Of a stretch of DNA of 58,446 nucleotides, positions 35,909-57,971 are shown piece by piece. Each line of letters opens with the position of its first letter. Position 1 is the stretch's first letter. Under the pieces are notes generated by a model. It saw only the letters and a program-made list of their open reading frames with translations. It was not told where the DNA came from and did no database searches. A program made the translations under genes and the position numbers. The DNA lies in the IMG/VR virus record IMGVR_UViG_3300020711_000011, positions 1 through 58,446 of that record. One strand, 5' to 3'. The DNA is from a virus.

Positions 35909-36418
35909 TTATTTATTTGAAGGACCATTAACCGTTATTACTCCATTTGCGATTGTGATATTTGTCTTTCCAGTCTTTAATACATTTGGAGGCAAGATTT
36001 CAGTCGCTCCATTTTTATATGCAGCGGCTTTTCTCTTTAAGTAATCGATGCGCTTCTGATCTTGAATTGATAATCTTTTCGTATCGATGAACTTTTGTCT
36101 TATTACATTTTGTTCAGTCGATTTTTGTGTTGGCTTATTAGTCCAAGGTAAAAGAGTCGCATCTCTCTGAGGAATTAATAGTGTATCACCTTCAGCAATA
36201 GAAAATGGATTTGAAATATTGTTATATTTTAGAATGTAATCTGCATAAGATGCAACACCATAAACCTGAAGCGCTATTAAATCTGGTCGACCTGCAAAAT
36301 GCGAGTCAACTAAGAATTTAGACATTACTTGTGTATTGCTACTAAATAGCACTGTCGGTTCAGTCATTATGACTACTCCATTTTCAATCCTCTTATTTAC
36401 TAAAGTTGTTAAGTTCAT
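35909..36418 (-). CDS. LysM-containing baseplate protein, T4 gp53-like
   Basis: A 169-residue protein similar in size to T4 gp53 (196). Residues about 55-85 resemble a LysM repeat (NPFSIAEGDTLLIPQ), and the surrounding FAGRPDLIALQVYGVASYADYILKYN segment resembles the gp53 and contractile-system wedge LysM proteins that lock the inner wedge. Residues about 95-135 are basic and helical (IRQKFIDTKRLSIQDQKRIDYL). The ATG overlaps the stop of the upstream tube-like gene by one base, indicating coupling. Confidence 0.7.
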   Translation of the reverse strand: MNLTTLVNKRIENGVVIMTEPTVLFSSNTQVMSKFLVDSHFAGRPDLIALQVYGVASYADYILKYNNISNPFSIAEGDTLLIPQRDATLLPWTNKPTQKSTEQNVIRQKFIDTKRLSIQDQKRIDYLKRKAAAYKNGATEILPPNVLKTGKTNITIANGVITVNGPSNK

Positions 36419-38220
36419 TATCCGTTTGTGAATTTTCTCATTTCATCTGTACCGTATGATGAAAGTCCTGTTATATCATTACCTCCCTTCTGATGGTTAT
36501 AAACATCGGTATCGGTTGTTTTATTAATATCTGGTCCTCCGTATGGTTTAAAGTAAAATCTACCTTTACCCGCATTAAACATGCTTTCAATCTCAGCTTT
36601 ATCTCTTGGTCGAGCAGGTTTTAGGGTAACTTTCAATTCTAATATTTCTGGAAAATCTTGAATACCTAATGGTCCTTTAAAATTTAATTCAGTTTTTGTA
36701 CAAGCTAGATTTCCAATAACTGCAATTGGATTTAATGGGTTACCTATCGTAACATGCCATTGTCCAGTTGCTTCACCAGTTAAGAATGCATTTACGATTT
36801 GTCCAGCATTTGGAGAGTTGAATAATTTTAACAAAGATCCTCCTAAGATATTATTTGTTAAGTTATTACCCATCAAACCATTTGATTTAATATCTCCAAT
36901 CAAGTTTTGTCCAAGTGTTCCAAGATCTTTCATTACTGATCCTAAGAACCCTTTATAATCTCCATTTGCAATTAATCCAGCATTTCCCAATGGTTTACCA
37001 ATACTTCCTGCACCACCTCCTGTATATCTAACAGCTCCTCCCCAGAATGGAGCATTTGAATAGGTCAATGCTAACAATTGGGACATCATATCCATAAACA
37101 TGATCTTTGGATTTGCTCCATTTAAAGATCTCATTTCATATTCAAACGTTAACGTAAATTCATGATCAAAATCCATACCTTCCTTTCTTTGCAACATTTT
37201 AGTGATCGCATTGTATGGACCAAACACATAGTTTGGATAAGTTGATGTGATTGGATCAAATGAAGCGCTATTGTATATGCTGGCTTGAACTGCATTCTTT
37301 CCATTTGCGGCAGCATCAACGCTTCTTAATAAAGAAGATGAATTCATGAATGCTCCAAACTTACCTCTTCTAGATGCATCGTTTTCGATGGTTTGAACCG
37401 CAGCTTCGACTTCATCCCAATTATATTTAAAACTAAAACCTAAAATATCTTCTATTTTATTTCCAGTTTGCTCTGACATCCACGTTACTGCTCTTGAAAG
37501 ATCTGGAGATGGTTTTAAAATCTTTTTTCCAGATGCATCTACCGTAAATGGAGTTATAATATCATCCTCAATAGGGAATGGAAATCTTCTTAGGGTAATC
37601 ATGTGATTGTTAGGAATTCTTCCTAAATATCTGCATAGAGCAAAATCAGAATAACCATATCTATAACCTAATCCTCCATTTGTAGAAGTTCTTTCTATAA
37701 TAGTTTGAATTGTTGGATTAACCAGGGTATCTGGATTAAAATCTAATTGATTGTATTCTCCATAGGGTACGCCTGTTGTGGCACCTTGTAGCGGAGTACC
37801 TCTATAATTTACTAAAGACCAAGAGTTAAAATTAGAATGTACTAATTTACCTTCACTAACATCACTCGTACCTGTACCAGTTGAACTTGGAACCTTGTAA
37901 ACTTCTGCTTGAGTTACTCTATCATAATATAATTTATTGTCACTGTTTGCAGTTTTAATATCTCCTGTTGTTGGCGTTTTAGAACCAGTTCCAGTGACAC
38001 CCGATATCGTTGGATTTGCAGTTACTGTTTCAGCATTCAGCGGTATCGATGGATTTGGACTAGCATTTGCAGCCGCAACTTCGTCATGATTCGATTGAAT
38101 GGCATCAGCTGTATTTGTTACTGTACCATTACCATTGTTGATTGTTATTCCACCTGCATTTGCGTCATTTGTTAATGGCGCATTTGAAGTTCTAATAGTA
38201 TCTATTGGTTCGAATGCCAT
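36418..38220 (-). CDS. Tail/baseplate structural protein with tube-like C-terminal domain
   Basis: A 600-residue protein. The N-terminal 120 residues are low-complexity Ala/Asn/Thr. A following domain (about 130-350) has RYLGRIPNNHMITLRRFPFP. The C-terminal domain (about 480-575) contains GQWHVTIGNPLNPIAVIGN and LKVTLKPARPRDKAEIESMF, similar to contractile tube or tube-cap proteins. The middle is Gly/Asn-rich. It is the first gene of the tail-block transcription unit (38220 to gp53-type), with a GATATATACTT box about 40 bases upstream and a short ATGGG/CCCAT inverted repeat in the leader at 38242-38257. A tube initiator or central baseplate protein is likely. Confidence 0.55.
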   Translation of the reverse strand: MAFEPIDTIRTSNAPLTNDANAGGITINNGNGTVTNTADAIQSNHDEVAAANASPNPSIPLNAETVTANPTISGVTGTGSKTPTTGDIKTANSDNKLYYDRVTQAEVYKVPSSTGTGTSDVSEGKLVHSNFNSWSLVNYRGTPLQGATTGVPYGEYNQLDFNPDTLVNPTIQTIIERTSTNGGLGYRYGYSDFALCRYLGRIPNNHMITLRRFPFPIEDDIITPFTVDASGKKILKPSPDLSRAVTWMSEQTGNKIEDILGFSFKYNWDEVEAAVQTIENDASRRGKFGAFMNSSSLLRSVDAAANGKNAVQASIYNSASFDPITSTYPNYVFGPYNAITKMLQRKEGMDFDHEFTLTFEYEMRSLNGANPKIMFMDMMSQLLALTYSNAPFWGGAVRYTGGGAGSIGKPLGNAGLIANGDYKGFLGSVMKDLGTLGQNLIGDIKSNGLMGNNLTNNILGGSLLKLFNSPNAGQIVNAFLTGEATGQWHVTIGNPLNPIAVIGNLACTKTELNFKGPLGIQDFPEILELKVTLKPARPRDKAEIESMFNAGKGRFYFKPYGGPDINKTTDTDVYNHQKGGNDITGLSSYGTDEMRKFTNG

Positions 38221-46099: not shown

Positions 46100-47023
46100 T
46101 TATAAACTATTTTCAAAATCTTTTCTGTACTTAAGCAGTGCAAGTTCTTTTGCCTTTGATTCTAATTCTATATCAATCAAATATCCGTGTGTATTGATTT
46201 CTTCGTAGATGTAATCGGCATGAGCCCTGAAGATAGAATCTTCGTCTTCGTTAATTTTCTTCGACGATGAATAGTGCGTTATTGGAATAATGCTGCTGTC
46301 CCATGATTTGAATGCCAGTCCAAGGGCTTCTGCTTCGGTAAGGTTACCTGGGTTGCATTGATGATGCAGAAAATCGAATGTGATCGGAATTCCAATGTTC
46401 TTATAGATTCCTTCGTATAGGTCTTCTACCGTGTACATCGAAGCCTTGTCATCATTCTCGATCACCAATCTTTTCTTTGCAGTATCATCCAACAGCTGGA
46501 AGTTGTCGCAGAATGTCCTGATTGTCTTCTCTTTGTCGCCATAAGCACCACCAATATGAATATTGATTGGATAATAAGGTGTTCGTGGCAGACCCATCAG
46601 ATCCAATATCTGACCATGCTGACACAGTTCTTTGTATGCTTTTTGAACAACTTGCGGCTTTGGAGATGCCAATACGTTAAAGGGTCCAGGATGGAACGTA
46701 AGTCTTACACCATTTTTTTGTACCGTATCACCGATACGTTCTAATATGACCTGAATCTTTTTGAAGTCTGGAAGATCGGTTAACTCATATTCTGACATCC
46801 ACGGAACCATATCGCTTGACATTCGGTACACTTTGATACCTCGTTGAATGTTCCATTGAATTACCTTTTCGAGGTCTTCGACGTTTTTAAGAGTGAGTTC
46901 TGAAGAGTACTTGATGCCTTTATCGTTGAAAGTTTTTCTGATCATCGATCTATTGGTCGTCAAGTTTTTTGATTCTTGTAACGTAAGATTAATGCAACAA
47001 TAACCCAAATTTAAGTTGCTCAT
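46100..47023 (-). CDS. uvsE: UV DNA damage endonuclease (UVDE/UvsE)
   Basis: A 307-residue UvsE-type TIM-barrel nuclease, which nicks DNA 5' to UV photoproducts and starts alternative excision repair. The metal-site residues fit the family: LTFHPGPF (His111), NIHIGGAYGDKE (His156), LVIENDD (Glu189), ITFDFLHHQC (Asp217, His220/His221) and ITHYSSS (His250). The N-terminus LGYCCINLTL is typical. Full length compared with bacterial enzymes (about 300 residues). Phage-encoded UVDE is uncommon; T4 uses DenV glycosylase instead. It lies 2 bases downstream of the next gene upstream, in the same unit. Confidence 0.92.
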   Translation of the reverse strand: MSNLNLGYCCINLTLQESKNLTTNRSMIRKTFNDKGIKYSSELTLKNVEDLEKVIQWNIQRGIKVYRMSSDMVPWMSEYELTDLPDFKKIQVILERIGDTVQKNGVRLTFHPGPFNVLASPKPQVVQKAYKELCQHGQILDLMGLPRTPYYPINIHIGGAYGDKEKTIRTFCDNFQLLDDTAKKRLVIENDDKASMYTVEDLYEGIYKNIGIPITFDFLHHQCNPGNLTEAEALGLAFKSWDSSIIPITHYSSSKKINEDEDSIFRAHADYIYEEINTHGYLIDIELESKAKELALLKYRKDFENSL

Positions 47024-47510: not shown

Positions 47511-47855
47511 TTATTTCCAAAGCAACTGGACCGCAATTAAAATAGCTGCGATTCCTAAAGAAACCATAGTTTTTGTATTAAGACCTTCATCCATTAGGAT
47601 CCAAGTCATTACGGCAAAGATTACCATTCCAGTAGCTTGACCTAAAAATCTTGCAGGCCAAAGCTCTCCTTTAAAGTGTAGGGCAATATATTGTACTGAT
47701 TGAATAAACATATAGGACGCAGAGGTACCGAATATAAGTGATACGATAAACGGATGTTCTTTAAATTTAGGATAGATGAACTGTCCATAACTTTGAAACC
47801 ACACCAAAATTTGCGCGAAAGCCATATAGAGAAATCCAATAGTTAAATTGTTCAT
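47511..47855 (-). CDS. Four-helix membrane protein (SMR/DMT-like)
   Basis: A 114-residue integral membrane protein with four predicted transmembrane helices (about residues 5-22, 35-55, 68-88 and 94-113). The third helix GQATGMVIFAVMTWILMDEG followed by LNTKTMVSLGIAAILIAV is the two-helix pattern of small multidrug resistance/DMT-fold proteins. Residue Glu14-type binding seen in EmrE is not evident, so transport is unproven. It shares a start-stop junction with RNase HII (47855) and is followed by a strong terminator. Possible roles are metabolite export, exclusion, or a holin-like function. Confidence 0.65.
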   Translation of the reverse strand: MNNLTIGFLYMAFAQILVWFQSYGQFIYPKFKEHPFIVSLIFGTSASYMFIQSVQYIALHFKGELWPARFLGQATGMVIFAVMTWILMDEGLNTKTMVSLGIAAILIAVQLLWK

Positions 47856-48484
47856 TAGAATAATTGTTCTGTTTTTGTTAACAGATGCGATATGAAACTC
47901 ATTCTATGATTTTTACTAGGACCTAATGTTTTAATTGCATTAATGTGCGCTGCAGTACCATATCCCTTGTTCGAAGCCCATCCATAAATCTTACCCTCTT
48001 CTTCGTTTCTCATCCATTCATCATGTTTTACCTTTGCTATGATCGAAGCCGCAGCGATGGCAGTATATTTATTGTCTCCACCGACTATTGTTTGATATTT
48101 ATAATCATGATAGCCGTGAAATTGATCTCCATCGACAATAATAAAATCAAATTGTTGGTTTTGTTCTGTTAAACTATCCAAACATTTCTTCATTCCATGC
48201 ATCGTTGCATTTAAAATGTTGATCTTCTCGATCATTTCAGGTTCTATATGGACACAAGACCATGCGATCACATTATCCATTACCACTTTATAAGATTCTG
48301 CCTTCTGTGGTTCAGAAAGCAATTTAGAATCTCTTATCGCTGGGTGTTGGAATCCAATGGGCATTATGCATGCTGCAACGGTAACCGGTCCTGCTAAAGC
48401 TCCTCTTCCAGCCTCATCGAGTCCAACCTCTATAATGCTTGTGTTCTCGTTAAACTGCGATTTCAATAAGATCAATTTTGGCAT
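47855..48484 (-). CDS. rnhB: Ribonuclease HII
   Basis: A 209-residue RNase HII, which removes RNA from RNA-DNA hybrids and single ribonucleotides. Catalytic acids are visible: GLDEAGRGALAGP with Asp23 and Glu24, IIVDGDQFHG with Asp118, and AAASIIAKVKHDEW with Asp155. The DSKLLS motif (residues 52-57) and the HxxSF-type ending (NHRMSFISHLL) also fit. Length matches bacterial RnhB. T4-like phages normally use an RNase H of FEN type (rnh), so this bacterial-type enzyme is unusual. It could have been acquired from the host lineage. Overlaps the membrane protein start by one base. Confidence 0.95.
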   Translation of the reverse strand: MPKLILLKSQFNENTSIIEVGLDEAGRGALAGPVTVAACIMPIGFQHPAIRDSKLLSEPQKAESYKVVMDNVIAWSCVHIEPEMIEKINILNATMHGMKKCLDSLTEQNQQFDFIIVDGDQFHGYHDYKYQTIVGGDNKYTAIAAASIIAKVKHDEWMRNEEEGKIYGWASNKGYGTAAHINAIKTLGPSKNHRMSFISHLLTKTEQLF

Positions 48485-48531: not shown

Positions 48532-49218
48532 TTACTTACCGTTCTCATCTTTCCACTTTTCATAGCGGTTAACAACGTCTTGTAGAATTTTAGCTCTTAC
48601 AATATCTTTTTCGCCAAAGATATGTGTTCCGATTCCTTTAATTCCTTTCAACATATCCATGAACGACGGCAGAGATACCTTTGATTTAGCGATGTCGTGT
48701 TGACTTACGTCTCCAGCAACTATCACTTTAGAATCCTTACCCATTCTGGTAACAAAAAGCATCAATTGTTTATAATCGGCGTTTTGCGCTTCATCAAGGA
48801 TCATCAATGCATCATCGAATGTATCACCTCTCATGTATGCGAGCGGTTGAAATTCAATAATGCCTTTTCCGAATAGGGTTTCAGTCTGAGAGAAGCCTAT
48901 GATTTTTTCAATATTGGATTTATAAGATTTCATGTAGGGATCCACCTTCTCATCGATCGTTCCTGGTAAAAAACCAAGTTTCTCTCCAGCCTCTTGAATG
49001 GGCTTACATAAAATAATTCTTTTAATTTTCTGTTCTTGTAATAATTGGAGTGCTACATAGCATGCTGTAAAAGTTTTAGAGGTACCTGCTGGTCCATAAC
49101 AAAATGTAATATCATTCTCTAAAACCGTATCGACATAATTAATTTGAGATTGCCTTAATTGTACGTGATTGGTTGTTTCCTTCTGACTGCTGTTCTTTTG
49201 ATTTTTAGATGATGCCAT
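48532..49218 (-). CDS. phoH: PhoH-like ATPase
   Basis: A 228-residue PhoH-family P-loop ATPase. Walker A is GPAGTSKT (residues 42-49); Walker B is LMILDEAQN with Asp142 and Glu143; the sensor-like VIVAGDVSQHD and the preceding RIILCKPIQEAGEKLGFLPG are typical. PhoH proteins are common in phage genomes and are thought to act on RNA, but their role in infection is not settled. The N-terminal 20 residues are Ser/Lys/Gln-rich and disordered. It is the last gene of the DnaJ-bS21 unit. Confidence 0.92.
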   Translation of the reverse strand: MASSKNQKNSSQKETTNHVQLRQSQINYVDTVLENDITFCYGPAGTSKTFTACYVALQLLQEQKIKRIILCKPIQEAGEKLGFLPGTIDEKVDPYMKSYKSNIEKIIGFSQTETLFGKGIIEFQPLAYMRGDTFDDALMILDEAQNADYKQLMLFVTRMGKDSKVIVAGDVSQHDIAKSKVSLPSFMDMLKGIKGIGTHIFGEKDIVRAKILQDVVNRYEKWKDENGK

Positions 49219-49234
49219 GCATTTTATCTATTTT

Positions 49235-49483
49235 TTAGTCTCCTGCCATTATAACAAGATCCTTGAGCTTCATCAGTTTTTCGCACTTTTCATACTCTTC
49301 CAAGTCTTCAAAGTACTCAACCAATAAATCTATAAATTTTGATCGTTGACCAGTTCCGTGTGGGATTTCGATGGTATTCTTACCATCTTGGAATGCAATA
49401 AACCTGTTCACAGTCTTGGTAAAGTTTCTAGTTACATTGTAGTAACTAGATCTCATTAGGCTATCTTTTTCTTCGTTAGACAT
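49235..49483 (-). CDS. Small EYEKC-motif protein, copy 1 (UVR-like C-terminus)
   Basis: An 82-residue protein from MSNEEKDSL (ATG 49481-49483). Another ATG lies 9 bases upstream, and an open frame continues to a TTG at 49604-49606, but that extension runs through the intergenic region. Residues 52-76 (LLVEYFEDLEEYEKCEKLMK) match the C-terminal helices of two further proteins nearby (49801-50061 and 51187-51519), with the invariant EEYEKC. The pattern looks like the UVR motif of UvrB/UvrC/McsA-type proteins, a two-helix protein-binding hairpin. Function unknown. It lies between bS21 and PhoH. Confidence 0.7.
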   Translation of the reverse strand: MSNEEKDSLMRSSYYNVTRNFTKTVNRFIAFQDGKNTIEIPHGTGQRSKFIDLLVEYFEDLEEYEKCEKLMKLKDLVIMAGD

Positions 49484-49615
49484 ATAATTCATTACCAGTC
49501 TGTTCTTTCTTTTTGTGGCTGTATACCGTTGTTCGAGGTATATATTACAGCCGAACAAATAATACAACAATTTCGGATATTTTATTACGTTAATAAAATG
49601 TAACAAAATCCCTGA

Positions 49616-49804
49616 TTAGTCTATGTTTTGTTGTTTTTGTTGTTTGTAGATTGCTTTAAGGTTCTGAGTTCTATTGATAACACTTGGTTTTTCGAACTCT
49701 TTTCTTTTTTGTAGCTCTTGGGTTTGCTTAGTTTTAAGAACCTTTCTTTTGTATTCCTTTAGAGCTTTTTCAATATTACCGTCTTTGATATTAACTATAA
49801 TCAT
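49616..49804 (-). CDS. rpsU: Ribosomal protein bS21, phage-encoded
   Basis: A 62-residue bS21 homologue: MIIVNIKDGNIEKALKEYKR then KEFEKPSVINRTQNLKAIY match Bacteroidota bS21 (IEKALKxxKRK, EFxKPSVxxRxxxxKAxY). The conserved C-terminal aromatic residue is kept (Tyr53). In Bacteroidota, bS21 with bS18 and bS6 sequesters the anti-Shine-Dalgarno tail of 16S rRNA, so a phage copy could alter which mRNAs the 30S selects. The start overlaps the stop of the upstream gene (ATGA). Unlike host rpsU of many Flavobacteriales, no extended SD precedes it. The family is secure; incorporation into ribosomes is inferred. Confidence 0.93.
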   Translation of the reverse strand: MIIVNIKDGNIEKALKEYKRKVLKTKQTQELQKRKEFEKPSVINRTQNLKAIYKQQKQQNID

Positions 49805-50061
49805 AGAGTTTCAATAATTTTTTTAAGGTTGTGACACTTTTCATATTCTTCGCGAGATTCAAACCATTTTATTAATATATCTAATGCTTCAATTTGAGTT
49901 TCTCGAGGTACATTTCCATCTTGTAGAGCACCCATCTTTTTTTCAATCAATGCGCGATATGTGATTTCCATCATTTGCGCCTGATTTAATGTTGCTAAAT
50001 AACTAAAGAATTGGTTTGGATTATTTCCATCTAGTATATCATCATACTGTTCCACTTTCAA
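49801..50061 (-). CDS. Small EYEKC-motif protein, copy 2
   Basis: An 86-residue paralogue of 49235-49483 and 51187-51519. Its C-terminal helices (LIKWFESREEYEKCHNLKK, residues 63-81) share W/YF-x(3)-EEYEKC-x(2)-L with them. The N-terminal 60 residues are different and helical. Start overlaps the DnaJ gene by 20 bases, and the TGA stop overlaps the bS21 ATG, so it is coupled to both. It could act as an adaptor for the chaperone or ribosome function, but this is only inferred from position. Confidence 0.7.
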   Translation of the reverse strand: MKVEQYDDILDGNNPNQFFSYLATLNQAQMMEITYRALIEKKMGALQDGNVPRETQIEALDILIKWFESREEYEKCHNLKKIIETL

Positions 50062-50851
50062 CTTCCTTTATTTTATGTATCAGCTCAATTTGAGCATCAT
50101 TTAGGCCGTGGAATGTTGTGTTTAGTTTTACAAGAATCGAACCCGATTCGTGCGTATTGTATATTGGTAGTCCTTTTCCTGGAATTCTAAGTACTTTTCC
50201 AGGTCCTGATTTCGGAGGTATCTTAAATGATATTTTTCCGGTTGGAGCCGTAATTTCTGCGGTAGTACCCAATATCATATCATAGAACCTGACATTGGTT
50301 TCGAACCATATATCATTCCCTTGTATGATAAATTGTTCACTTGGTATAATTGTAACCGTGACAATTAGATCACCCCTGGGAGCGTTACTGTTCATTGGGT
50401 GATATTGACCTCTTTGCGGGTACTTAAATATCATTCCGTTCTTCACTCCTTTTGGAAAATTGATGTTTATCTTATCGTATCCCATGTCAAACACTCGTTG
50501 CGCGCCATAGATCACGTCGTAGATGGACAATTGAGCCGAAACCTTGACGTCCGGACCCTTGTTTCCTCGGTTTCCAAATATGTTATCGAAGTCTCCGGCA
50601 AAATTACTGCCGAAATTAAAGTTCTTTAGCAGATCTTCAAGGGACGGACCGCTTTGTGTACGATCGTAAGTTGCCTTTTTATTTGGATCACTTAAGACGC
50701 TATAAGCTTCTTGGATCTGTTGAAATCTGACTTTGGTATTTGCATCTGGATTTTTATCAGGATGGAATTCCTTTGCCAGATTTCGGTATGCACGCTTGAT
50801 TTCATCCTGCGTTGCAGCATCACTAACTCCTAATGTGTTGTAGTGACTCAT
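50042..50851 (-). CDS. DnaJ/CbpA-type J-domain co-chaperone
   Basis: A 269-residue J-protein. Residues 3-65 are a J domain with the His30-Pro-Asp32 motif (LAKEFHPDKNPDANTK), needed to stimulate Hsp70 (host DnaK). A Gly/Phe-rich linker (NFGSNFAGDFDNIFGNRG) follows, then the two C-terminal substrate-binding barrels (VSAQLSIYDVIYGAQRVFDM and RGDLIVTVTIIPSEQF). There is no CxxCxGxG zinc finger, so it is CbpA-like. A phage J-protein may recruit DnaK for virion assembly or replication. The Hsp20 gene lies about 0.7 kb upstream. Confidence 0.92.
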   Translation of the reverse strand: MSHYNTLGVSDAATQDEIKRAYRNLAKEFHPDKNPDANTKVRFQQIQEAYSVLSDPNKKATYDRTQSGPSLEDLLKNFNFGSNFAGDFDNIFGNRGNKGPDVKVSAQLSIYDVIYGAQRVFDMGYDKININFPKGVKNGMIFKYPQRGQYHPMNSNAPRGDLIVTVTIIPSEQFIIQGNDIWFETNVRFYDMILGTTAEITAPTGKISFKIPPKSGPGKVLRIPGKGLPIYNTHESGSILVKLNTTFHGLNDAQIELIHKIKEVESGTV

Positions 50852-51087
50852 TATTTCTCGTTTTTACGTCTGTCAATAGCCTCTTGTATCTTTTCTCTGG
50901 TACCGGTAACGATATCGATTTTTTGCTGACGTTCCATTAAATCGGCAACTCGTTTAAGTTGTTTGGCTAGTTCTTGAGCGGTTGATTCGGTAATAGGAGA
51001 GACTGTGTTCTTGCTCTTTGGAGATGCCAGGGCTGTGGTCCATCCCTTTGGAACTTTAGCGGGCAATTTTACTTTTTTATCTGACAT
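50851..51087 (-). CDS. Small basic protein upstream of DnaJ
   Basis: A 78-residue Lys-rich protein (VKLPAKVPKGWTTALASPKS) with a helical C-terminal half (AQELAKQLKRVADLMERQQK). Unknown family. Its stop overlaps the DnaJ start by one base, and a TATATAAA box lies 23 bases upstream of its ATG, making it first in the DnaJ-bS21-PhoH unit. The proline/lysine N-terminus suggests a flexible tail. Confidence 0.5.
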   Translation of the reverse strand: MSDKKVKLPAKVPKGWTTALASPKSKNTVSPITESTAQELAKQLKRVADLMERQQKIDIVTGTREKIQEAIDRRKNEK

Positions 51088-51186: not shown

Positions 51187-51519
51187 CTAAATTTGTTCAA
51201 GGTAATCTCTAAGAATCGAACACTTTTCGTACTCTTCGGTCTTTACGAAATAGTTCATCATAAATTCCAGAGTTGCCTTTAATTTTACCATTGCTTCAGG
51301 ATCCAAATTAACCATTTGTCTTGTAGCATTGATGTCTAAACCGTGCATTTGTATGGTTTCGTAATTAAACCTAACATATCCATCGATCGCCTTTTCAAAG
51401 ATTTCATTTGCTTTCATTTTGTCTTCTGAAGAGAAGTCATCTGGAAATTCATTGTCATTGAAATTTTCTTCAAAGCCATCTTCGTCATCAAAAAAGTCGT
51501 CGTTAAAATCGTCAATCAT
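51187..51519 (-). CDS. EYEKC-motif protein, copy 3
   Basis: A 110-residue acidic protein. Residues 1-35 are strongly acidic (FNDDFFDDEDGFEENFNDNE), and the C-terminal 25 residues (MMNYFVKTEEYEKCSILRD) match EYEKC copies 1 and 2; EKCxxLRD is closest to a UVR motif. It is a single-gene unit: promoter C (51538-51572) is 18 bases upstream, and a hairpin lies downstream. Early expression of a short acidic protein suggests a host-directed role; no function known. Confidence 0.7.
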   Translation of the reverse strand: MIDDFNDDFFDDEDGFEENFNDNEFPDDFSSEDKMKANEIFEKAIDGYVRFNYETIQMHGLDINATRQMVNLDPEAMVKLKATLEFMMNYFVKTEEYEKCSILRDYLEQI

Positions 51520-51578: not shown

Positions 51579-51953
51579 TTAAGAAATTTTAACCTTTTTT
51601 ACAGTTTTTTCTGGTTTAACAGATTCAAATCCAATTGTCAATATTCCATTAATCAAAGATGCTTCAACCTTATTTAAATTTTTAATTTTAAATGATGTTT
51701 CAAAGCTTCTTTTATAAAAGGTTTCGTCTTCTGATTTGATTTCTGCTGAAATTTTCAGTAAATCATTTTCAATTTCGATGTTTAATTCTTCTTGAGAATA
51801 TCCTGGTACGATAAATATTATCGAATCATCATGAACAGTATAAGACGGATAAGAATACGTGGTCGTTGTTTTTTTCCATCCTATTGGATCATACGTTAAT
51901 AATCTTTCTAAATCATGCAGGTCGCTGGTTCTAGTGTTAAATAGTGAAAACAT
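51579..51953 (-). CDS. Small heat-shock protein (Hsp20/alpha-crystallin)
   Basis: A 124-residue Hsp20-family chaperone. The alpha-crystallin domain is at about residues 35-115: YTVHDDSIIFIVPGYSQEEL, then LNIEIENDLLKISAEIKSED, KRSFETSFKIKN and ASLINGILTIGFES, the A-x-x-x-x-G-h-L pattern. A short C-terminal tail has VKI, a possible I-x-I-type motif. Such proteins hold unfolded clients for Hsp70/DnaJ. Small Hsp20 genes occur in cyanophages and other T4-like phages. It lies near DnaJ and may work with it. Confidence 0.9.
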   Translation of the reverse strand: MFSLFNTRTSDLHDLERLLTYDPIGWKKTTTTYSYPSYTVHDDSIIFIVPGYSQEELNIEIENDLLKISAEIKSEDETFYKRSFETSFKIKNLNKVEASLINGILTIGFESVKPEKTVKKVKIS

Positions 51954-54340: not shown

Positions 54341-55219
54341 ATGAGAAAAGCTATCTGGGTTTTAGAGAATGTCGATGGAAATCGTGAGTTTTATACCAGC
54401 GTTAAAATTTTAATGCTGCTTTCAAGTGTCATCAATTGGAAAAGATACAATGAAACCAATAACGCGCTGCATACGGATTCAATGACCTTGGCAGTCCTAA
54501 GCAACCTAGGAGTCTTGGATCTATGGGATGAAATTCATACCAACATAATAGACCAAGAGACTGTGATTGATAAGAGATCTTATTGGGCATCTTCTAAATT
54601 AAGAGTATTAATTAATCAAACTGAACCGGTTACATTGGTTGATTATGACTTTATAACATACACTAATTTGACAGAACTTGGAAAGGATTCCGCTTTTGTT
54701 TATTCATACGATGAAAATGGAACTCAATCATATTTTGGAGGAACTAATCCAGATGTTAAAAAATTAAATAACATTCCAGATTTTTTAAAAAGAAGTAAAA
54801 GCCTAGATGCTGCTAATGTTTCATATCTTTCTTTTAATGATATCGAATTTCAGTTAGAATATGCAAAGTATTCTTTGGCATGTATCGAAGAATTTTCTGA
54901 AATGGGAGTAAAGGGTACAAGCTATCTAACTTTTGCCGAACAAAAAATATTAAAGCAACTTGCGTTACATCTTGGTGTTAAACACGTTCCATTGATTAAA
55001 AATGAATTTAAATCTTCAAAGCAAGGATTTATAAATGTGATGAATCCTGATGGAATATGGCATGTTGATGATGCAAATTTTAAATTTAAACACATCGGTA
55101 CCGATAAAGCATTTATAAAAAATGGAGATCCAACCTTTATTTTTTTATGTAATAGTATAAGATCCAAAATCGATCAAGCTCATTTGGATAGAATCTTAGA
55201 ATTAGATCAACCGTTATAA
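54341..55219 (+). CDS. Putative glycosyltransferase-like protein (only plus-strand gene)
   Basis: A 292-residue protein, read opposite to every other gene. It begins MRKAIWVLENVDGNREFYTS and contains YNETNNALHTDSMTLAVLSN and VTLVDYDFITYTNLT with Asp101-Tyr-Asp103, a DxD-like motif as in GT-A enzymes. The pattern AxxSNxxVxxxWD with a later DxD resembles polysaccharide or GT32-type sugar transferases of Bacteroidota. No catalytic confirmation is possible. It converges with the GT2 gene (overlap 55207-55219) and diverges from the ATP-grasp gene, so it looks like an inserted module, possibly modifying a fibre or host glycan. Confidence 0.5.
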   Translation: MRKAIWVLENVDGNREFYTSVKILMLLSSVINWKRYNETNNALHTDSMTLAVLSNLGVLDLWDEIHTNIIDQETVIDKRSYWASSKLRVLINQTEPVTLVDYDFITYTNLTELGKDSAFVYSYDENGTQSYFGGTNPDVKKLNNIPDFLKRSKSLDAANVSYLSFNDIEFQLEYAKYSLACIEEFSEMGVKGTSYLTFAEQKILKQLALHLGVKHVPLIKNEFKSSKQGFINVMNPDGIWHVDDANFKFKHIGTDKAFIKNGDPTFIFLCNSIRSKIDQAHLDRILELDQPL

Positions 55220-56427
55220 ACTAAATTCACAGCGCCTTGTTCTTCTCCATATATTGATGGAGTATCTATTGGATGGTGAGGATTTTGTTCGTATGCCCAA
55301 TCTTTAACTCCAAGCTCTTTAAATCTTTTTACAATTTTCTCGTTATAATAGAGCATGATTGTTTTGACTCTTCGTTGAATATCAGCTCTAGTACGATCTT
55401 GCGTATTCATTTCAGTTCCATCATTATATAAAAATTGAATATAAAGGGTTTTCGGTATATGAACCATTTTTGTATTAAGAAAAGTTCTTATGATTAACTC
55501 ATAATCATCTGCTATAGTTAATCCACGAGCATGTCCACCAATCTCAAAATAGGTTGAACGCCTCCATGCTCTAATATGATTTGGAACTCCAACAATATGT
55601 CTAATTGTTTTAGGATTTATAGGAGGAGTAATCGAAGATTGTACCTCATGACCCATAACATAGTCAGTTCTATATGTTCCATATCCAAGCGCAAAACCTT
55701 CTCCATAAATATTAGATTTCCAATCAATTGAAACTTCAGGTGCATCTGAATAAAAGAATCCGGCATCTGGAAACATCTGAGACGCTTTATATAAGTGTTC
55801 TGCACAATCAGGAGTCAATAGGTCATCATGATCCAGCTCTGCCAATATTTCACCTTTACACATGCATGCTGCTCGCCACTTAACCTCTCCTATCAAACCG
55901 CCACTTTTTTCTTTAAAATCATAAACTCTAACCCTAGTATCTTTATCTGCTAAATCTTCTGCGATCTTTAATGTTATACCATCATCATTTGAATCGTTCA
56001 CCATCACCCATTCCCAATTATTGTGGGTTTGGTTTTTAAGAGATTCGTAAGTTTTGTATAGTTTTTCTTTGGTATTGTATATTGGAGTAAAGAACGAAAT
56101 CAATTCCTTTCTATCGGTAATATTTAGAATATCGTGCATTGCAACTCGATATGCCATATCTCCCATGAGTGATGATTGCTCTTTAACGTTTATCCATTTC
56201 CTTCTAATTTCTAAAGGAGCTACAAATAGCTTTGGCAAACTTGATTCATCTTGAACACACGATAATATCGCATCGGGTTTAAATCGATTAATGACTTGAA
56301 ATATTTCATCATCATTATTAATATACTCAACCTCAAGTTCAGAAGATTCATAGTACACTGGATTATTTGTTGTTAGGACTGGAGTCCCTTCACCGATAAA
56401 TAGAATCCTTGGATTTCTTACTTTCAT
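55207..56427 (-). CDS. Family 2 glycosyltransferase
   Basis: A 406-residue GT2 enzyme. The first about 105 residues form a separate alpha/beta domain (RNPRILFIGEGTPVLTT). Then the GT-A fold: ELISFFTPIYNTKEKLYKTY, WVMVNDSNDDG, LAELDHDDLLTPDCAEHLY (DxD within ELDHDD, residues 197-202), and the acceptor region IVGVPNHIRAWRRSTYFEIGG with ADDYEL as the catalytic acid region (about 300-325). It likely transfers a nucleotide-sugar residue to a protein or glycan. Neighbours are two 2OG oxygenases and a second GT-like gene, suggesting protein glycosylation or surface glycan change. Confidence 0.88.
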   Translation of the reverse strand: MKVRNPRILFIGEGTPVLTTNNPVYYESSELEVEYINNDDEIFQVINRFKPDAILSCVQDESSLPKLFVAPLEIRRKWINVKEQSSLMGDMAYRVAMHDILNITDRKELISFFTPIYNTKEKLYKTYESLKNQTHNNWEWVMVNDSNDDGITLKIAEDLADKDTRVRVYDFKEKSGGLIGEVKWRAACMCKGEILAELDHDDLLTPDCAEHLYKASQMFPDAGFFYSDAPEVSIDWKSNIYGEGFALGYGTYRTDYVMGHEVQSSITPPINPKTIRHIVGVPNHIRAWRRSTYFEIGGHARGLTIADDYELIIRTFLNTKMVHIPKTLYIQFLYNDGTEMNTQDRTRADIQRRVKTIMLYYNEKIVKRFKELGVKDWAYEQNPHHPIDTPSIYGEEQGAVNLVYNG

Positions 56428-56432
56428 ATAAA

Positions 56433-57365
56433 TTATTCTACGTCAAAGAAAAATAGTTGAAAAAATCTGGCATTGTTGATTGCATCTCCGAAATATTTGG
56501 TAGCTGCATGAATTCTTTTGGAATTAAAGAGAACCAATCTGTTATAGACATTTGCAACCTCATCCATTAATTCATATTGGGTGCTATCATAGAAGTTTAA
56601 TTCATTGCTAAGACCTTTAAATGTATCATTGAATTCTTTTTGATTTGAATCATCTACATTTTCAAATATTGTAGCACCTGTATACTTGCTCTTATAGAAT
56701 GCAGTTCCAGTATTAACTGGAGCATCTGGAGTTAAAAATACCATTGCTGCGTATGTTTGAGTATCTACATGATACACGATAGGATCTTGTGCTGTACAAT
56801 ATTGAAAAACTCCATTAGCATATCTTGGATGATTCCAATTAGTTACCTTACGACCTATAATCTTTTCAAACTTCTCTTTGGTACCATTCAAAATAAATGC
56901 ATTTCCTTTTGTACGTTTACCTTTATGATAATCAGAATCCTTGTACTCTAAATTATTAATAGCATAATCTCTAATCAAATCTGGATCCGCATAAAAATTA
57001 TCTACAACAATAAGATCTTTGTGATCCCTATTAAATCCAGAATAATACGCGATCCAAAATTTAAATGAATCCAATATCTTAATTAACGTAGTGCTTTCTT
57101 TAAGTTGTATGCTAAAAGGTTTATCAATTTCATTAGCATTGATAGTTATTTTAAATCCTATCATTGTATTGCCTAATAGAGGATACGCATCTTTCACATC
57201 AGTTCTCAGAAATTTAATATATGAAATTTCTCGGGTATCAATTACAAACTTTTCTATTTCTCTATAAATATTAAAGATCCAACCCTGTATTTCATAGGTA
57301 TCTTTATTCTGATGAACTTTATCGACATACATCCTTGTAGACGCATCAAATGTCTCGTGTGCCAT
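56433..57365 (-). CDS. 2OG-Fe(II) oxygenase (DUF6445-like) with N-terminal domain
   Basis: A 310-residue protein. The first 100 residues are a beta domain (TYEIQGWIFNIYREIEKFVI). The rest is a 2-oxoglutarate/iron dioxygenase: IVYHVDTQTYAAMVFLTPDA (His199-x-Asp201), LVLFNSKRIHAATKYFGD (His286) and NNARFFQLFFF (Arg300, the 2OG-binding residue). The HxD...H...R set is complete. It lies between the GT2 gene and another oxygenase. Hydroxylation of a protein side chain, possibly Pro or Lys of fibre repeats, is the leading hypothesis. Confidence 0.8.
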   Translation of the reverse strand: MAHETFDASTRMYVDKVHQNKDTYEIQGWIFNIYREIEKFVIDTREISYIKFLRTDVKDAYPLLGNTMIGFKITINANEIDKPFSIQLKESTTLIKILDSFKFWIAYYSGFNRDHKDLIVVDNFYADPDLIRDYAINNLEYKDSDYHKGKRTKGNAFILNGTKEKFEKIIGRKVTNWNHPRYANGVFQYCTAQDPIVYHVDTQTYAAMVFLTPDAPVNTGTAFYKSKYTGATIFENVDDSNQKEFNDTFKGLSNELNFYDSTQYELMDEVANVYNRLVLFNSKRIHAATKYFGDAINNARFFQLFFFDVE

Positions 57366-57386
57366 ATTTAAAATATTTAAATGTGA

Positions 57387-57971
57387 TTATTTAAAGTGTG
57401 ATCCACCAACCCAAAGAACCAATGACTTTCTTAAGCCTTTTGTAACCGGAGTTACTCTATGTAGCACATAAGAAGGAAATAAGACTCCGACTCCTTTACC
57501 TCTTGGACCTTGTTTCGGTTCATTTCCACCAAACCAAAGTTCTAAATCTCCACCTTCGTATTCTTCGGTATCACTCATTTGAACGGTGATCGAAATTTTA
57601 CGATGTGACATATTACCTGGTCCACAATCCATGTGCCATGTGTAATGTCCACCTTCTTCTGCATAATATTCAGTGTATTGAATTAATTCAGTTGCAGAAT
57701 ATAGATCAAAATGCCAAATTGCATTATTTGCAGTTGCTGCAAGCTTGGTTAATTTTTCGTATAACCAAATCCATTTTTGATCTTTTGGAATCCATTTAAT
57801 TCTAGAACTTCTAATTTCTTTACTGCTTTCTTCTCCTTCATCGCCAAGCTTTGCTTTGGCTGAAGATACTACAGCTAAATCTTTTTCAATTTTATCTAAT
57901 TCAATATCAGTGAAGATATTGCTATACCAGTAATAATTATCTGGTGTGTTGTGTGGTTGAACGTATTGCAT
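57387..57971 (-). CDS. 2OG-Fe(II) oxygenase (prolyl 4-hydroxylase type)
   Basis: A 194-residue dioxygenase. Active-site residues: HYTWHMDCGPG (His113-x-Asp115 iron ligands), VLFPSYVLHRVTPVTKG (His171) and LRKSLVLWVGG (Arg181). The EYEGGDLELWFGG strand before them is typical of PKHD/P4H enzymes. Related small oxygenases are widespread in cyanophages and other T4-like phages and hydroxylate proteins or free amino acids. It is transcribed with the other oxygenase 22 bases downstream. A terminator lies upstream (58008-58036), so it begins a new unit. Confidence 0.88.
   Translation of the reverse strand: MQYVQPHNTPDNYYWYSNIFTDIELDKIEKDLAVVSSAKAKLGDEGEESSKEIRSSRIKWIPKDQKWIWLYEKLTKLAATANNAIWHFDLYSATELIQYTEYYAEEGGHYTWHMDCGPGNMSHRKISITVQMSDTEEYEGGDLELWFGGNEPKQGPRGKGVGVLFPSYVLHRVTPVTKGLRKSLVLWVGGSHFK

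Follow-up and report, generated by a model that had tools for sequence, protein, structure and literature searches.

Why would a phage encode a ribosomal protein of its own, and does that protein change which mRNAs the 30S subunit picks during infection? The question is raised by an open reading frame with an ATG start and a 62-residue product in a 58,446-base virus record, which we analysed over its full length and refer to as the window. A bS21 in Bacteroidota phages is a natural test of whether viruses refit ribosomes, and phage bS21 is known as a kind. S21 was reported in huge phages by Al-Shayeb et al. 2020, and Chen et al. 2022 (PMC9723584) described 47 phages with bS21, drew attention to an aromatic residue, noted that 127 of 900 published phages have Hsp20 close to bS21 and put forward the hypothesis of a ribosome takeover. 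To this we add a block of genes in conserved order, two residues (positions 18 and 28, the former not in their list) that set phage copies apart, loci that have lost the gene and a contrast in Shine-Dalgarno (SD) sequences; in the literature searched, which left subscription papers and preprints largely outside, we found neither this block nor deletion scars nor the absence of an SD before phage bS21 described earlier.

Identity of the phage bS21 and its gene block

The translation of the open reading frame (MIIVNIKDGNIEKALKEYKRKVLKTKQTQELQKRKEFEKPSVINRTQNLKAIYKQQKQQNID) matches the Pfam family Ribosomal_S21 (PF01165) with an E-value of 6.8e-13 and a score of 48.6 bits (cut-off 27), over positions 2-54 of the 55 in the profile, and it is the sole bS21 in the whole record. 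Its closest relatives of solved structure are 9i5v (1.1e-11) and the F. johnsoniae protein in 7jil (6.8e-11), the third-ranked, 5myj, being far weaker (1.8e-5). An AlphaFold model (mean pLDDT 88.4, pTM 0.51) has the two helices of the bS21 fold, at residues 11-35 and 40-61. In the alignment with F. johnsoniae, which has a single-residue gap after Gly9, Tyr53 of the window protein falls on Tyr54, the aromatic position of the Bacteroidia type. A sequence-only reading of this DNA had called the product a 62-residue bS21 of Bacteroidota type with a C-terminal Tyr, and had named the loss of contact residues as the observation that would speak against it; the assignment is borne out, and K39, S41, R45, A51 and Y53 are all retained, as judged by conservation.

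Only the relatives of the phage and the type of its bS21 point to the host phylum, which we infer to be Bacteroidota: the 600-aa protein encoded at 36418-38220 has matches in phages that infect Tenacibaculum, Chryseobacterium, Flavobacterium and Prevotella (Lak), along with Sphingomonas phage PAU. That search matched 31 records, none reaching 80% query coverage, and a PHROGs search with the same product gave no match; our guess is that it is a terminase. Baseplate proteins suggest a contractile-tailed phage. The window also encodes a UvdE-type UV endonuclease (46100-47023, minus strand) and a cluster of glycosyltransferase, DUF6445 and 2OG-Fe(II) oxygenase genes (55207-57971, minus strand).

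Table 1. Genes of the block around the phage bS21, in 5' to 3' order of the minus strand, with positions in the window
Feature	Positions	Strand	Remarks
Hsp20	51579..51953	-	
smA, third EEYEKC paralogue	51187..51519	-	UVR motif weak (17.5 bits, short of the 21.5 cut-off)
78-aa block protein, no family match	50851..51087	-	
DnaJ (J domain and DnaJ_C)	50042..50851	-	
smB, helical protein of about 86 aa with a C-terminal EEYEKC motif	49801..50061	-	stop overlaps bS21 start; start codon uncertain (listed TTG, overlapping the DnaJ 3' end)
Phage bS21, 62 aa, Bacteroidia type	49616..49804	-	phage-type residues E17, V22, L23, Q27
smC, smB paralogue, well conserved	49235..49606	-	homologues suggest that the true start is ATG 49492 or 49483
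PhoH-like ATPase	48532..49218	-	
RNase HII	47855..48484	-	

The gene lies in a same-strand block (Table 1), with Hsp20, smA, a 78-aa protein, DnaJ and smB on its 5' side and smC, PhoH and RNase HII on its 3' side. The proteins smA, smB and smC have a C-terminal EEYEKCxxL in common, which resembles a UVR hairpin, and these paralogues are kept in the block of phages with and without bS21. A structure model of smB has five helices (pLDDT 82.1, pTM 0.70); a fold search with it against the PDB returned nothing at an E-value of 0.001 or better, and tblastn of smB and smC against a phage collection found no match. The window DnaJ matches only J and C-terminal domain models, the zinc-finger domain being absent from the matches.

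A profile search of viral contigs with smC yielded 140 relatives. Across the best 80 of these 140 loci the order DnaJ-smB-bS21-smC-PhoH-RNase HII is conserved, and the slot is filled by bS21 in 67 of the 80, or 67 of 77 testable loci, given that three (L209, L235, L242) end before the slot. The ATGA junction that the sequence-only reading had described, in which the stop of smB overlaps the start of bS21, is present in the window. Of 52 distinct bS21 genes of the clade, the window included, 43 overlap smB; among the remaining nine, six have their start within 3-9 bases of the stop before it, two start at 24-25 bases, with DnaJ as the gene before bS21, and one is unreadable. The same reading had placed the gene in a chaperone operon, and this stands in part: DnaJ and Hsp20 are indeed encoded upstream in the same orientation, but the block also takes in PhoH, RNase HII and the three small UVR-like proteins, and the operon itself is putative.

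The huge-phage bS21 proteins of Chen et al. (PMC9723584) are likewise of Bacteroidota type with an aromatic residue at 54, form phage and bacterial clusters that lie apart, and diverge from host bS21 at, for example, positions 21, 23 and 28. Their genes are described among those for terminase, portal, protease and capsid, on the opposite strand, whereas the neighbours of the window gene are smB (overlapping), smC, DnaJ, PhoH and RNase HII, all on the same strand. Moraphages (Perez-Hernandez et al. 2025, PMC12619734), which we compare by description only, are similar in being aquatic jumbo phages with predicted Bacteroidota hosts, some with DnaJ; the term S21 is absent from the main text of that paper.

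Residues that separate phage from host bS21

Fingerprint counts on our first sets were rejected as stand-alone evidence, the phage scan having been seeded with EKALKEYK and the host pattern having allowed only E or R there. Because these scans were seeded on the tested positions, the fingerprint was recounted on phage sets retrieved without a first-helix seed, with 39 distinct proteins obtained via a C-terminal pattern (best 80 of 192 relatives) and 48 via smC (best 80 of 140), and on a phylum-wide host draw by profile, in which 109 of 109 genomes had bS21 and 110 loci gave 103 distinct proteins; 3 of 113 host matches, both from G115 (partial) and that from G041, were left out. Gln at F. johnsoniae position 28 occurs in 85 of the 87 phage proteins (best 80 of 192 and best 80 of 140 sets) vs. 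none of the 103 host proteins, and Lys or Arg at position 18 in 12 of the same 87 vs. 103 of 103, with exact tests treating related sequences as independent, so that their p-values are indicative only. The window protein has the first-helix divergence from host bS21 described for huge phages: V22, L23 and Q27, equivalent to F. johnsoniae 23, 24 and 28, are divergent, and R20 (F. johnsoniae 21) is unchanged. Chen et al. (PMC9723584) listed phage divergence at Arg21, Phe23, Asp25 and Thr28; our data agree at positions 21, 23 and 28, and at Asp24 in our own numbering, and add position 18.

Tyr or His is present at position 54 in 98 of 101 distinct phage proteins, and in 86 of the 87 from sets without N-terminal seeding (best 80 of 192 and best 80 of 140), while K39 is kept in all 101 and S41 and R45 in 100 each; residues of the rRNA-side half, 54 included, are among the best conserved. 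One clade member that keeps bS21 (L217) has a diverged C-terminal end with no aromatic residue at 54. Tyr54 is not a phylum-wide trait, since in the host draw (L310-L419) Tyr or His was found at this position in 30 of 103 proteins and Arg in the other 73. When 52 phage proteins and 35 host proteins are placed in one tree (64 columns), a single branch with an SH-aLRT of 85 (not starred) splits the two groups, the inner forks being mostly unresolved; because phage and host proteins lie on opposite sides of this branch, the tree suggests an old phage family as opposed to a recent pick-up.

Shine-Dalgarno contrast and natural losses

In F. johnsoniae, a strong SD precedes rpsU, which regulates its own expression (McNutt et al. 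2023, PMC9976891; restated in the review PMC10931766). Its product (7jil) shares with the window protein the C-terminal half that contacts the anti-SD, Tyr54 included; the window gene differs in having no SD and in encoding Glu17 and Gln27 in the first helix. The longest exact SD match at -22 to -4 of the window bS21 is 4 nt, so the sequence-only reading was right that no SD precedes it, and the extended SD of autoregulated rpsU is absent there. This is on a par with the other genes of the phage: among 50 ATG-start genes of the window the match never exceeds 5 nt, which makes the SD-less state the rule. An exact SD match of at least 6 nt stands before only 2 of 103 distinct phage bS21 genes, two truncated loci (L133 and L205, of 80) having been dropped before counting, vs. 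37 of 73 distinct cases for host rpsU in a similarity-selected set and 18 of 30 for the Tyr/His54 hosts of the phylum-wide draw; Arg54 hosts (73 proteins, 34 with at least 6 nt) represent another type and are excluded from the contrast. The unusual point is the frequent SD before host rpsU, not its absence in the phage. SD-like stretches in the two phage exceptions measure 9 nt (L237) and 7 nt (L259), and the former, which falls within the last part of the smB gene, may be no more than coding sequence that resembles an SD by chance. Three host genomes with two bS21 genes (G122, G107 and G056) have copies (L387, L419 and L352) without an SD of at least 6 nt, possibly mobile or specialised ones.

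In ten loci of the best 80 of 140 the slot is present without bS21 (L214, L236, L279-L282, L284, L285, L287 and L288), and no bS21 was found elsewhere in these ten records, which include ones of 199,669 and 145,137 bases and may be fragments. With 10 of 77 testable loci lacking the gene and none elsewhere in their records, bS21 is not essential. The flanks of L236 and its relative L231 scarcely differ, and in L236 a clean deletion of 45 codons, in frame, fuses MLIIN to AKYKQPRDL; L214, compared with L215, has only the last bS21 codons left. No remnant was seen by eye in the three loci inspected from the L279-L288 group. Assembly error in these metagenome records may contribute to the apparent losses. 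Where bS21 is present it is under purifying selection, the median dN/dS being 0.30 over 166 usable of 1326 pairs, which are not independent. The deletion scars and this ratio together describe a gene that is dispensable in some phages though selected.

What the phage copy may do on the ribosome

The phage probably refits host ribosomes with a bS21 of its own, a known trick. Our main reading, to which we give a probability of about 0.7 as a whole, is that the window encodes a working, Bacteroidia-type bS21 that a lineage of large Bacteroidota phages has carried for a long time, and that this protein is made by coupled SD-less translation, enters the 30S subunit and keeps the anti-SD hidden. The protein would be translated behind smB and, because this translation would be coupled and SD-less, would not depend on ribosomes lacking bS21, which favour the SD-driven rpsU of the host. 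Most likely it would then enter the host 30S instead of, or beside, host bS21, where the Tyr53-type C-terminal half would keep the anti-SD tail tucked away, so that the ribosome would stay suited to SD-less, A-rich phage leaders; the altered N-terminal helix would sit at the mRNA path, as placed by Chen et al. The sequences themselves show the family, the residues, the smB overlap, the synteny, the missing SD, purifying selection and natural losses, whereas incorporation into the 30S, anti-SD occlusion and a benefit to the phage are what we infer. Counting against the reading are the ten loci without the gene, the lack of an aromatic residue at 54 in L217 and a host deduced solely from phage relatives and bS21 type. 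In its favour, the bS21 of pelagiphage HTVC008M (Mizuno et al. 2019, PMC6375957), also phage-encoded but of SAR11 and not Bacteroidota origin, entered E. coli 70S ribosomes, and F. johnsoniae ribosomes with C-terminally truncated bS21 formed poorer initiation complexes on SD-less mRNA (PMC9976891). The same pelagiphage protein cut E. coli in vitro translation to ~5% (PMC6375957), a result that weighs on the other side.

Another account is one of supply: bS21 binds loosely and is readily lost, and the phage copy would only replenish it at a time when host rpsU mRNA is broken down, doing nothing special on the ribosome. Coupled SD-less expression, purifying selection and repeated loss all fit such a conditional role, but supply alone does not predict a near-fixed Gln28 and a lost basic residue 18 across phage lineages, and we hold it as a tentative alternative that falls somewhat short of even odds. 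The conserved neighbourhood of proteins of unknown role might instead point away from the ribosome, for example to an RNA-binding partner of smB, smC, DnaJ or PhoH, and for another bS21 a connection with an RNA complex outside the ribosome has been reported (PMC12054373). Such a role is very improbable given the conservation of the rRNA-side half, including position 54, and the persistence of smC in 10 and smB in 9 of the 10 loci without bS21 (best 80 of 140). That some relatives have the gene missing or scarred could also be read as the decay of a randomly acquired host gene, an explanation that purifying selection and a position conserved across strongly diverged phages make hardly credible.

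Going beyond our main reading, the SD contrast would also accommodate a one-way replacement, an idea that we regard as unlikely. In F. johnsoniae, bS21-free ribosomes boost SD-driven rpsU, so refilling bS21 (PMC9976891). An SD-independent phage bS21 that fills empty ribosomes and hides their anti-SD would stop this refilling, and with host rpsU shut off the replacement would run in one direction; the idea predicts both the near-absence of an SD before phage bS21 and the retention of an aromatic residue at 54. We found no earlier proposal of this feedback in the literature searched, and McNutt et al. (PMC9976891) suggest the reverse, namely that autoregulation is a host counter-defence.

The hypothesis of Chen et al. 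2022, in which the altered N-terminal helix makes ribosomes prefer phage over host mRNAs, is favoured by the Gln28 and position 18 counts and by the single branch that splits phage from host proteins, yet we consider it rather doubtful. The lineage offers near-identical locus pairs with and without bS21, two phage-specific residues and an SD contrast with an often strong host SD, and because these come together the takeover question can be put to the test in F. johnsoniae, for which reporter strains have been published. An altered choice of mRNAs, an idea already in print (PMC9723584, PMC6375957), was also the suggestion of the sequence-only reading; its Bacteroidota type, Tyr and missing SD stood, but a comparison of upstream bases gave this last step no backing. 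Between 99 genes of two bS21-less phages and 240 genes of seven bS21 phages, the window included, there was no difference in base profile at -20 to -1 (lowest p 0.17 of 20 positions), in a comparison of weak power and unequal sampling that used the longest ATG open reading frames of at least 120 aa as proxy genes. Phage leaders look like ordinary SD-less leaders, with no obvious feature to be selected; selection by mRNA structure, or in competition with host mRNA, may operate and is compatible with this null result. In the same comparison, positions -30 and -24 had uncorrected p-values of 0.04 and 0.05, and genes lacked an SD alike in phages with bS21 and in phages without it, A being the base at -3 in 60% of the former and 67% of the latter.
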